Source: Halomonas sp. (GTDB taxonomy: Bacteria > Pseudomonadota > Gammaproteobacteria > Pseudomonadales > Halomonadaceae). From it: 64,000 nucleotides of DNA. A program made the position numbers and the translations under genes. Positions within the stretch are counted from its first letter, which is position 1; every line of letters starts with the position of its first letter. Shown piece by piece: positions 26,764 to 30,500 of the stretch. Location of the stretch: positions 1 to 64,000 of the forward strand of contig NZ_REBQ01000074.1 in the NCBI RefSeq assembly GCF_007692655.1, written 5' to 3'. A model generated the notes under the pieces. It did not search any database. It saw only the letters and a program-made list of their open reading frames with translations, and was not told the origin of the DNA.

Positions 26764-27225
26764 TTATTTTGGCGGGTGAGCGTGAGACGCCAGTCGCTCT
26801 AGTGCACGTTTAAGCGCGGGGTTGGTTGTGTCTTCAGCGCAATCCGCTAATGTTTTCCCTGCATCCACTGACAGGCTGCGGGTATTGCGTGGTGGAGCTA
26901 CAATAGGGCGCACGGGGCGTACTTTAAAAGTGAAGCCATTGACGCCTTCAAACCCAGGTAACTGATGCAGCAGCTCTAGTAGGCGGCGCTGTTCGAAGCG
27001 AAGCCATGTTAGCCAACTGGCTTGGCCGCTGATGACTGTTAAGCGCCCCTCGCGAAAACCGCCGACAAAAATATGCTCACGCATCTCTTCGGGTAAGTGA
27101 GCGCGCAGGTGGCGCTGGGCCTGATCAATCAGGCGAGACAGGCGCATTAGTTGACTAATATCGCCAGACTTTGACAGCAGGCGGGCAATGGGCTGTGCGT
27201 GAGAACGCTTAACCTTTATACTCAT
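26764..27225 (-). CDS. dciA: DciA-like DUF721 protein
   Basis: Member of the DUF721 family, whose studied member DciA loads the replicative helicase DnaB in bacteria lacking DnaC. The 153-residue protein has a basic N-terminus (MSIKVKRSHAQPIARLL) and the KH-like core with GGFREGRLTVISGQASWLTWLRFEQ. ATG at 27225 is preceded by TAGGA; a 19-codon extension is unlikely. The lpxC-dciA-secA neighbourhood is usual in relatives. Family firm, helicase-loading role inferred. Confidence 0.8.
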   Translation of the reverse strand: MSIKVKRSHAQPIARLLSKSGDISQLMRLSRLIDQAQRHLRAHLPEEMREHIFVGGFREGRLTVISGQASWLTWLRFEQRRLLELLHQLPGFEGVNGFTFKVRPVRPIVAPPRNTRSLSVDAGKTLADCAEDTTNPALKRALERLASHAHPPK

Positions 27226-27239
27226 ACACTTAATTCCTA

Positions 27240-27265
27240 GGGTACCGCTGTTTGAGGGTACCGCT
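27240..27265. repeat. Two GGGTACCGCT direct repeats in the dciA/secA divergent region
   Basis: GGGTACCGCT occurs at 27240-27249 and again at 27256-27265, a 16-base period. TATAAA at 27265-27270, a possible -10 for rightward transcription toward secA, abuts the second copy, and no good -35 is visible. On the reverse strand the repeats lie in the dciA leader. Confidence 0.65.
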
Positions 27266-27337
27266 ATAAATAACGTCGGCATTTCTGGCCGATGGCCAAT
27301 GATCAGATACTACCACGCTCAGGAGCCGGTCTACAGC

Positions 27338-27700
27338 ATGTCACCAACGCTTGATAATCAGCCTGCTTTGCCTCGGCGCCAACGCCGCTACGGTATCGCG
27401 CGTTGGTGGCTGGCTGGCCTGCTGGTCAGTTGCCTGTTGCCTGCTGGCTTAGGCGCGGCCGATGTCTTTCGAGGCAGTGAGCGTGGCGCCACTATTTGCT
27501 TTTGGGTGCCCGCTATTTTACGCGCTCAATCGCACTGGATTGCCAAAAGGCAACGCGCTTTGCGCCGCTGGGCCCAGCGGCCTCGGCGCTTTGTACCCGC
27601 TCGGAGCCAATTTAATTGGCTACCTCCCATGGCCATACTGGTAGCGGCGCATGATGTGTTGACTCAGCGCGGTCCACCGCTTCATCGAGTGAGTTGTTAA
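27338..27700 (+). CDS. Unrecognised small secreted-type protein upstream of secA; candidate SecM-like arrest peptide
   Basis: I do not recognise this 120-residue protein as a named family. A basic N-region of 22 residues (with RRQRR) precedes a hydrophobic core (about 23-39) ending GLGA-A, which looks like a long signal sequence as in SecM. The rest is Arg-rich, with Trp at 57, 67, 78 and 94. The C-terminus has Q110-R-G-P-P114 six residues before the stop, resembling the RAGP end of SecM and the RAPP end of other arrest peptides; the upstream Phe/Trp spacing of SecM is not matched. AGGAG lies 12 bases before the ATG. secA starts 65 bases after the stop. It may instead be a degraded gene; pseudomonads carry, as I recall, an M23 peptidase gene here. 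Confidence 0.5.
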   Translation: MSPTLDNQPALPRRQRRYGIARWWLAGLLVSCLLPAGLGAADVFRGSERGATICFWVPAILRAQSHWIAKRQRALRRWAQRPRRFVPARSQFNWLPPMAILVAAHDVLTQRGPPLHRVSC

Positions 27701-27764
27701 TACACCTACTTTCTCGAAATAGGGCGAATTCCCGATGGGTCGCTCGTGAATATTTGGATATTTC

Positions 27765-30500
27765 ATGCTTAATAATTTATTACGTAAAGTCGTTGGCTCT
27801 AAAAATGACCGCGATGTCAAACGCATGCATAAAAACGTGCCGCATATTAACTCGTTAGAAGCCGAGTTTGAGGCGCTAAGTGATGCTGATTTACAGGCCA
27901 AAACAGCCGAACTGCGTCAACGTCTAGAAGCAGGTGAAGCCCTTGATAGCCTGTTGGCACCCGCCTTTGCGATAGTTCGCGAAGCCAGTAAGCGGGTCAT
28001 GGGCATGCGCCACTTTGATGTTCAGTTGGTCGGTGGCATGACGCTGCACCGTGGCCGTATTGCAGAAATGAAAACGGGTGAAGGTAAAACCCTTGTGGCA
28101 ACGCTGGCGGTATACCTCAATGCGCTGCCCGGCAAGGGCGTTCATGTTGTTACAGTGAACGACTACCTGGCTCGTCGTGATGCCGAGTGGATGCGTCCGC
28201 TATACGAATTCTTGGGTTTATCCATCGGTGTAATTTTCTCTGGCCAAACAGGCGAAGAGAAGCGTCACGCTTACCAGTGTGATATTACCTACGGCACTAA
28301 TAACGAGTTTGGCTTTGATTACCTGCGCGATAACATGGCGTTCTCGTTAGAAGATAAAGTGCAGCGCGGATTGCACTTTGCAATTGTCGATGAAGTTGAC
28401 TCTATCCTTATTGACGAAGCACGTACCCCGCTTATCATTTCAGGGGCTGTTGACGAGAATACTGATCTCTACAAAGTCGTTAATGAACTCGCTCAGCAGC
28501 TTGAGAAAGGCGAGGAGATTGAGGATGAAGAAGCAACGATCGTTGGTGATTTTCTCGTTGATGAAAAGCAAAAGCAGGTCGAACTGACAGAGCAAGGGCA
28601 CAACAAGGTCGAAGAGCTAATGCGTGCTGAGGGGTTGCTAGGCGCGGATGATTCGCTCTACGCCGCCCAGAATCTCAACCTGTTACAGCATATGCATTCA
28701 GCGCTGCGCGCCCGTCACCTTTATCACCGCGATGTTGACTATATCGTTTCCGAAGGCCAGGTGGTGATCGTCGACGAACATACCGGGCGCTCGATGCCGG
28801 GTCGCCGCTGGTCAGAAGGCTTGCACCAAGCGGTAGAGGCCAAGGAGGGCGTCACGGTCCAGCGCGAAAGCCAAACGCTGGCATCCACCACCTTCCAGAA
28901 CTACTTCCGTTTATATGAAAAATTAGCTGGGATGACCGGCACGGCGGATACCGAAGCCTTTGAGTTCCGGCAAATTTATGGCCTTGACGTGGTGGTTATC
29001 CCTACTAACCGCCCGTTGGTCCGTAAAGACCAGAATGATTTGGTTTTCCTGAGCGCTGAAGAGAAATACGAAGCGATCATTAAAGATGTAAAAGCTGAGA
29101 CGGAAGCCGGACGCCCCGTGCTGGTGGGTACTGCTTCGATTGAAACCTCCGAGTACCTTGCCAAGCTGATGCGTGAAGCTGGCTTAGCGTTTAACGTGCT
29201 TAATGCCAAGCAGCACCAGAGCGAAGCCGAAATTATTGCTCAGGCGGGTCGTCCAGGCGCGATTACCATTGCCACCAACATGGCCGGTCGAGGCACCGAC
29301 ATTATGTTAGGCGGTAACTGGGAGGCTGAAGCGGCCAAGCTACAAAACCCCACTGAAGAGCAACTTGAAGCACTCAAAGCCGAGTGGCAGGCGCGCCATG
29401 ATGGCGTACTGGCCGCTGGTGGCCTGCACGTAGTGGGCTCTGAGCGTCACGAATCGCGGCGTATCGATAATCAGCTGCGGGGTCGCGCCGGACGCCAGGG
29501 GGATCCAGGCTCAACGCGGTTCTTCCTGTCGCTGGAAGATAGCCTTATGCGCCTATTTGGCTCTGATCGCGTTAAGCGTCTGATGCAGGCGTTAGGTCTT
29601 GAGCGTGGTGAAGCGATTGAGCATAAGATGGTCTCCAATGCCGTTGAGCGGGCTCAGAAGAAAGTCGAAGGACGTAACTTCGATACCCGTAAACAGCTGC
29701 TTGAATATGATGATGTTGCTAACGACCAACGGCGAGTCATCTACGACCAGCGTAATGAAATTCTTGCCGCAGACGATGTCGCTGATGCTGTTCTCGGGAT
29801 TCGTGAAGAGGTCATGGAGACAACGATCAGTGATTACGTGCCGCCCCAGAGCCTGCCAGAGCAGTGGGATTTGCCAGGCTTGGAAGCGCACCTGAAAACA
29901 GAATTTAATCTCGACGCTCCGGTGGTTAACTGGGCCGCTGAGGATGATCGCTTCAGCGAGGAGAAGCTACGCGAGCGTTTGCAGACGATGCATCGCGAAG
30001 CCTACGCAGCCAAAATTGAGGCGGCCGGTGAGAAATTGATTCGCCGCTTTGAGAAGCAGGTCATGCTTCAAGTGTTGGATACACGCTGGAAGGAGCACTT
30101 GCAGTCAATGGACCATCTGCGGCGCGGTATTCATCTGCGCGGCTATGCCCAGAAAAATCCCAAGCAAGAGTATAAGCGTGAATCTTTTGAGCTGTTTCAG
30201 CAGTTGCTTGAAAATATTAAAGCCGATGTCACCCGCATATTAAGCCATGTCCAAGTACGTCAGCCTGAAGAAGTCGATGCCCTCGAGCGCCAGCGCCGGG
30301 AGGCCTTGGCGCGAGAAACCGCGACGGCAGCAAGCCGACACGATGATCCAGCCAGTCAACAACAGCCAGCACCTAAGCAGGAAGCGCCGGGAGTTGATGG
30401 TCGTCCGGTGCGTCGCGAAGGGCCTAAAGTTGGCCGCAACGACCCTTGTTTTTGTGGTTCAGGTAAAAAGTACAAGCAGTGCTGTGGGAAATTGAGTTAA
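27765..30500 (+). CDS. secA: Preprotein translocase ATPase SecA
   Basis: Motor ATPase that pushes unfolded preproteins through SecYEG. Walker A MKTGEGKT is at 102-109; [21 protein letters not shown] carries Walker B and the DEAD-like motif; [13 protein letters not shown] and [11 protein letters not shown] are the second nucleotide-binding-fold motifs. The C-terminal zinc tail has C895, C897, C906 and C907 for SecB and lipid binding. 911 residues. The start has only a weak GGA at 27756-27758, so translation may depend on coupling or release from the upstream ORF. Confidence 0.97.

Follow-up and report, generated by a model that had tools for sequence, protein, structure and literature searches.

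A candidate secretion-monitoring arrest peptide encoded directly upstream of secA in the Halomonadaceae

In E. coli, a stem-loop hides the Shine-Dalgarno (SD) site of secA, and a stalled ribosome opens this stem-loop (PMC10987492). Among the further systems described by Fujiwara et al. 2024 (PMC10987492) is uA_RQH_Pseudomonadales, a group of upstream open reading frames (uORFs) of secA with RAPP-like ends. Here we analyse a uORF ending in Arg-Gly-Pro-Pro (RGPP) that lies directly before secA in Halomonas sp. (assembly GCF_007692655.1, contig NZ_REBQ01000074.1, positions 1 to 64,000; this whole stretch of 64,000 nucleotides is the window), together with its relatives across the Halomonadaceae. 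On the basis of its sequence and of the published analogues, this uORF very probably encodes a secretion-monitoring arrest peptide for SecA, whose export-sensing stall would raise secA.

According to the main text of PMC10987492, uA_RQH_Pseudomonadales is reported for stalling, and regulation is shown for a secDF uORF of Alteromonas. In vitro, an R109GPP representative of the group stalls ribosomes of both E. coli and B. subtilis (fAP > 0.9), toeprints of RQH peptides place the third residue of the motif in the P site, the RQH definition asks for more than 30 residues from signal to arrest site, and no overall similarity between the groups of RAPP-like arrest peptides is reported in that text (PMC10987492). 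The RGPP sequence is, as described in PMC12992588, absent from the E. coli MG1655 proteome and generally gives the most robust arrest among the contexts tested, with RGPP versions of SecM and ApcA depending little on contacts at the tunnel constriction. Structures of RAPP arrest point to the residue preceding the Pro in the P site as what stops the nitrogen of the A-site Pro from attacking (PMC10951233). By analogy with these peptides, the uORF of the window is strongly expected to stall its ribosome, and the first Pro codon (27674-27676) would be expected in the P site, as in the RQH toeprints (PMC10987492). We favour arrest because the homologues found in 133 of 151 family genomes all carry R[GA]PP, because selection acts on signal and motif, and because the spacing between the two is held at 77-84 residues.

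The reading frame and its conserved parts

The features that carry this reading are listed below, where omega is the ratio of nonsynonymous to synonymous change.

27338..27700, plus strand: candidate secretion monitor (arrest peptide) uORF, 120 amino acids; open frame with stop TAA at 27698-27700, homologues, omega 0.12
27404..27451, plus strand: hydrophobic signal core WWLAGLLVSCLLPAGL, residues 23-38, with Cys32 at 27431-27433; Cys in 135 of 135 uORFs, omega 0.036 (residues 22-40), alignment of 36
27644..27667, plus strand: upstream part of the arrest motif, AAHDVLTQ, residues 103-110; family pattern before RGPP, omega 0.039
27668..27679, plus strand: arrest core Arg-Gly-Pro-Pro, residues 111-114; 127 RGPP and 8 RAPP among 135 uORFs
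27765..30500, plus strand: secA, 911 amino acids; Pfam PF07517, the sole SecA_DEAD match in the genome

The protein ends in Q-R-G-P-P-L-H-R-V-S-C (its terminal stretch reads VAAHDVLTQRGPPLHRVSC), with Q-R-G-P-P at residues 110-114 and six residues left before the stop, and 64 nt lie between the stop and the secA ATG at 27765. An earlier note on this DNA had described a 120-codon frame here, with Q-R-G-P-P six residues before its end, a basic N-region, a hydrophobic core, an Arg-rich body and a weak ribosome site of secA downstream. All of these are present (the body of the window protein has 11 Arg and 3 acidic residues, net +9), and the distance of 65 bases given to secA is corrected to 64. 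A longer frame of 133 amino acids could begin at 27299; the start at 27338 is preferred because an ATG stands at the equivalent codon, 31 codons before the conserved Cys, in 21 of 21 aligned sequences (the window and 20 close relatives). The small protein of the window has no match in Pfam or NCBIfam at E up to 10. Among relatives, 8 Pfam families were matched, each by a single member (best E 0.0082), and these matches were judged to be chance.

The same 21 sequences were used for the analysis of selection. Omega is 0.12 over the whole uORF, which is a real gene, and purifying selection is concentrated in the signal core and the arrest motif, not in residues 73-102. By segment, the signal core (22-40) has an omega of 0.036; for residues 41-72, 73-102 and 103-110 the values are 0.059, 0.183 and 0.039, and omega is 0 for RGPP, where no nonsynonymous change occurs though the codons vary (four for Pro113, three for Gly112). 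At residues 2-21 it reaches 0.274, and synonymous change is low there too (pS, the synonymous divergence, is 0.238 at codons 2-21).

Across the family, the N-terminal basic region and hydrophobic core are conserved, as judged from sequence alone. The signal core has the strongly conserved consensus W-W-L-A-G-L-L-V-[GS]-C-L-L-P, and its Cys is found in 135 of 135 uORFs, recognised by pattern in 134 and by eye in L125. The distance between this Cys and the first Pro was scored in 134 proteins and is always 77-84 residues (mean 79.8, sd 1.9). The family arrest motif reads D-V-L-[ST]-R-R-G-P-P; among 135 uORFs D is found in 121, V in 106, L in 97, S or T (position -2 before the Arg) in 115 and R (-1) in 107, with A at -8 in 94 and A or G at -7 in 113. 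As loci were admitted to this table by R[GA]PP, its R and PP are fixed by definition.

These patterns also bear on a different explanation, that the gene product is a small protein exported to serve some separate function, such as a lipoprotein, of which RGPP is a mere conserved tail. The invariant Cys, the strongly conserved signal core and the constraint on residues 41-72 would all suit such a protein, and a lipobox-like L-V-[GS]-C occurs in 112 of 134 proteins. We consider it unlikely, since residues 73-102 are freer while the spacing across them is kept and since the gene precedes secA in all 135 cases; for a lipoprotein in particular, the basic residue right before the core of the window protein breaks the strict lipobox rule. 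Of the checks proposed in the earlier note, the computational ones have favourable outcomes: the frame persists throughout the family, conservation of the last residues exceeds that of residues 73-102, and substitutions are strongly biased towards synonymous change. Because of these three results its interpretation is supported; it was right in its observation and most likely right about function.

Distribution and origin within the family

The family sample consists of 151 genomes, chosen evenly from a larger group and including that of the window. A protein search (E <= 0.01) finds a homologue in 133 of them, each with R[GA]PP upstream of secA and, in 131, no more than 14 residues from the stop (the exceptions are L079 and L106). 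The stretch upstream of secA was inspected in all 151 genomes, using 30 loci from the protein search, 100 that were fetched and 21 anchored on secA, these last being the 18 genomes that gave no protein match and the three weakest matches. Anchoring adds two diverged genomes, so that 135 of 151 carry the uORF, 127 with RGPP and 8 with RAPP; in 133 of the 135 the motif lies within 14 residues of the stop, and in all 135 the uORF is directly before secA on the same strand. The other 16 genomes lack it; in 15 of them the place is taken by an M23-like frame, and one has neither. RGPP was likewise found in 79 of 80 named loci (80 were kept of the 185 relatives found), titled Halomonas, Vreelandella, Billgrantia, Chromohalobacter, Litchfieldella, Onishia or Halovibrio. 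The conservation of R[GA]PP exceeds chance. Of the 24 genera that the family sample covers, 20 have this candidate secA-controlling arrest peptide.

Several loci depart from the common form. The single miss among the named loci, L188 (Halomonas olivaria TYRC17, AP019416.1), has a match length that is no multiple of three, unlike L174 (Vreelandella olivaria TC10), in which the uORF frame is intact. Both exceptions in stop distance belong to genus g12 (genera carry the labels of our sample). L079 (genome G071; secA at locus position 1088) has RGPP and no stop, and reads in frame into secA, which is either a real fusion or an assembly error; L106 (G146) has 44 residues between RGPP and its stop, and its frame overlaps the secA start by 4 nt. 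RAPP replaces RGPP in six loci of g7 and in two of g19 (L107 and L110), and the latter two end in R-A-P-R-A-P-P, which looks like a duplication.

When 293 genomes of the order were searched with profile A1, 15 gave a match. Of these, 12 belong to the family; the other three matches (E 2.6e-4 to 0.01) are partial and lie in long or broken frames, and they look like chance. For anchoring at the level of the order, one genome was taken from each of 30 other families and secA was obtained in 29 (loci L247-L275); none of these 29 has an R[AG]PP uORF, and a lone RDPP frame in L254, 321 nt ahead of secA, appears spurious. As far as this sampling goes, the 'lineage-specific' of the earlier note holds. 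In 20 of the 29 an M23-like peptidase frame, recognised by motif, stands directly upstream of secA. Three frames of this kind, from L249, L135 and L144, were confirmed by Pfam as Peptidase_M23 (E 6e-32 or better). The uORF occupies in Halomonadaceae the position held in most other sampled families by an M23 peptidase gene. Derivation from that gene was considered and is rejected as far as sequence comparison goes, for there is no similarity between the two (best E 0.75 and 0.098 in the two directions).

The uORF probably arose within the core Halomonadaceae, and one gain in the family core is the simplest reading. In a SecA tree of 81 rows and 190 columns, the 45 rows with the uORF group in a single part of the tree that also holds three outgroup rows. 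Against a single gain, the uORF label needs two changes on this tree and 0% of 200 bootstrap trees have one; the starred branches force only one and are compatible with it.

The gene could also be a true SecM orthologue that has diverged past recognition. It sits in the same place (lpxC ... secA) with a similar layout, and BLASTP aligns it weakly with E. coli SecM from the signal region (E 0.018, one comparison). That alignment fails to join the two arrest motifs. In Pfam searches, neither the window protein (E up to 10) nor 36 family members (E up to 1) gave a match to SecM (PF06558), and the lack of an R[AG]PP uORF in the single genomes from 29 other families also speaks against descent. We therefore regard orthology as very improbable: the Halomonadaceae uORF is without recognisable SecM homology. 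For the earlier note's 'SecM-like', layout and expected action stand while descent does not.

Predicted pairing of the arrest region with the secA start

If the uORF controls secA, its stalled ribosome might act on the RNA around the secA start, for which three features are relevant in the window.

27753..27759, plus strand: weak Shine-Dalgarno sequence UUUGGAU before secA; pairing with a hand-entered 16S tail, -3.1 kcal/mol
27672..27676, plus strand: predicted anti-SD GUCCA in the Gly-Pro codons, pairing with 27755-27759; duplex prediction
27722..27745, plus strand: possible intergenic hairpin GGGCG...CGCTC; seen in the consensus fold of 37 sequences at greater distance that were counted as belonging to the genus

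The evidence for pairing comes from the other genera of the family. There, the arrest codons or the tail behind them pair with the secA SD region, and coevolve with it, in about half of the genera, as supported by calculation. In a coevolution map of 56 cells, which sets the pairing of a genome's own strands against strands swapped between genomes (n=60), the strongest cell is P-3..P+20 with -30..-6 of secA (z -9.6). In genus averages, own pairing is stronger than pairing between permuted genera (p 0.00025 for a near-identical pair of windows, uncorrected for that choice), and it is the stronger in 15 of 20 genera. The pairing takes a different form from one genus to another: in g2 the Gly-Pro codons pair with GGAUCUC at the SD, while the codons after RGPP are used in g4 (CCUGCCUGAU with GUCAGGCAGG), g7 (CUGUCCU with AGGACAG) and g12 (GUGUUCGCUC with GAGUGAACAC). 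In 40 of 110 genomes, from 9 of 19 genera, the arrest-site window out-pairs every one of its set of upstream windows, where about 2.8 would be expected.

Computed folding points the same way. When the mRNA up to P+14 is removed, as by a stalled ribosome, the mean unpaired share of the SD in the 110 genomes rises from 0.29 to 0.45, with changes larger than 0.05 upwards in 70 and downwards in 14; with the stall edge at P-20 it stays at 0.28. When the edge is scanned, averaging the 19 genus means gives 0.29-0.33 for edges up to P-20 and 0.40-0.44 for those at P-10 and beyond. The rise falls between P-20 and P+20, at a position that varies by genus. In the E. coli secM-secA control, exposure rises from 0.10 to 0.29, for an SD that was picked automatically and may be wrong.

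A number of results weigh against such a switch. Own pairing is the weaker in five of the 20 genera (g6, g8, g10, g18, g23), the 40 genomes include none from ten of the 19 other genera, nine of 19 have a mean z above zero for arrest-site pairing, and mean SD exposure falls in g6, g15 and g17. The E. coli duplex is unexceptional, 34% of control windows being as strong. The window's own genus adds to this count: arrest-site pairing beats all upstream windows in the window itself and fails to do so in 24 of 25 genus genomes, the pairing of arrest site and SD averages weaker than that of upstream windows (mean z +0.6), own pairing with the SD cells is weaker than swapped (z up to +3.4), and SD exposure moves from 0.56 to 0.60, up in 8 and down in 3 of 25. 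In this genus the RNA switch is not supported.

Other tests in the window's genus agree or point elsewhere. Direct pairing of tail and SD is not above swapped (p 0.57 with 19 sequences, 0.99 with 37), and stalled and unstalled folding of eight members gives inconsistent changes in SD exposure. The best cell of the map here is P-16..P+10 with -40..-16 (z -4.5). For the tail after RGPP and the hairpin region, own pairing beats swapped (p 0.05 with 21 sequences, 0.0002 with 39), which is suggestive and is confounded by relatedness and composition. Each pair of the hairpin is formed in 28-36 of 36-37 of the more distant sequences, and the consensus fold of the 21 closest, window included, takes other pairings. 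Pairing with the hairpin region could be another form of switch.

It is also conceivable that the peptide is only a translated leader which couples or shields the secA initiation site, with no need for stalling. The lowest synonymous divergence near the start and the RNA pairing in several genera are in keeping with this. Coupling alone would not hold the amino acids R-G-P-P through the synonymous change seen at Pro113 and Gly112, and we think it highly unlikely that this is the whole role of the gene.

On the arrest-peptide reading, the following sequence of events can be proposed. The N-terminal signal, to judge by its composition, would target the nascent chain to the Sec translocon. With R111-G112-P113 in the P site while the A site holds Pro-tRNA114, RGPP would block peptide bond formation, as in the RAPP and SecM arrests. 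Active export, by the example of SecM, would pull on the chain and release the stall, and slow export would prolong it. The stalled ribosome would hold the mRNA near the arrest codons single-stranded and free the secA SD region, as computed for several genera, and since the site would be freed in this way, SecA would be made when export is limiting. Possibly, though this is somewhat less likely than not, the end of the gene combines arrest by RGPP with an anti-SD RNA rebuilt in each genus, while the Cys and the spacer of 77-84 residues tune release, perhaps in a lipoprotein precursor; with two jobs to do, the arrest region would therefore be constrained at both the peptide and the RNA level. 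The 135 natural variants offer an open test of the sequence needed around RGPP for arrest, and of coevolution between arrest codons and the translation start they control. The near-invariant signal core and narrow spacer could also help in studying how a stall is released by the force of export.

Upstream of the uORF lies a divergent neighbour, with lpxC placed beyond it in the window.

26764..27282, minus strand: dciA (DUF721); Pfam PF05258, E 8e-8

The leader before the uORF (27290-27400; CTA..CACGC..AGGAG......ACAGC-ATG) recurs in similar form at many of the 23 loci compared, and L054, L121, L142 and L147 do not share it. Together with the low synonymous divergence of codons 2-21, it may represent a promoter or an RNA element at the start site. 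Rfam gave one sub-threshold match, judged to be chance; scans found 1 promoter against 1.4 expected and 3 terminators against 1.7 expected.

Comparison with known arrest peptides

The Halomonadaceae family is most likely the published uA_RQH_Pseudomonadales, given its place upstream of secA, its RGPP, an Arg at 109 and its absence from the other families sampled (one genome each). Like that group, it consists of small uORFs on the same strand directly upstream of secA (135 of 151 genomes) with a RAPP-like conserved C-terminus, and its 77-84 residues from Cys to first Pro compare with the more than 30 required. The published R109GPP fits the Arg 109 of 15 of 134 family proteins (with starts as chosen here). 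We take the order Pseudomonadales of GTDB r202 to include Halomonadaceae, which NCBI taxonomy places in Oceanospirillales. A limit of the comparison is that the main text of PMC10987492 names no species for the group. A literature search for Halomonas with 'secretion monitor' returned no paper, and there was no mention of Halomonas among the matches listed; in the papers searched, the name uA_RQH_Pseudomonadales appears in one.

With E. coli SecM the uORF shares its position upstream of secA, an N-terminal signal (in the uORF, as judged from sequence) and a C-terminal arrest motif that starts with Arg and ends with Pro. The secA SD is sequestered in RNA structure in E. coli and, by computation, may be so in several other genera of the uORF family, though not in the window's genus. 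The two differ in the motif itself, RAGP in SecM and RGPP here, and the SecM motif F-x4-W-I-x4-G-I-R-A-G-P, as given in PMC10987492, is unmatched across the 135 uORFs; the lack of its upstream Phe/Trp pattern had been recognised in the earlier note. Our spacer, roughly estimated at 70-80 residues from the signal end (from the 77-84 counted at Cys), is shorter than that of the long class of SecM and near that of the short class (medians 131.5 and 71; PMC10987492).

ApdA and ApdP have an R-A-P-P core, for which RGPP also supports arrest (PMC12992588), and act at the peptidyl transferase centre (PMC10951233). ApdA is found in Actinobacteriota and ApdP, with secDF, in Alphaproteobacteria (PMC10987492). 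The kind of peptide described here is already published; added here are the invariant Cys, the spacer of 77-84 residues, and the computed pairing of the arrest region with the secA SD in about half of the other genera.
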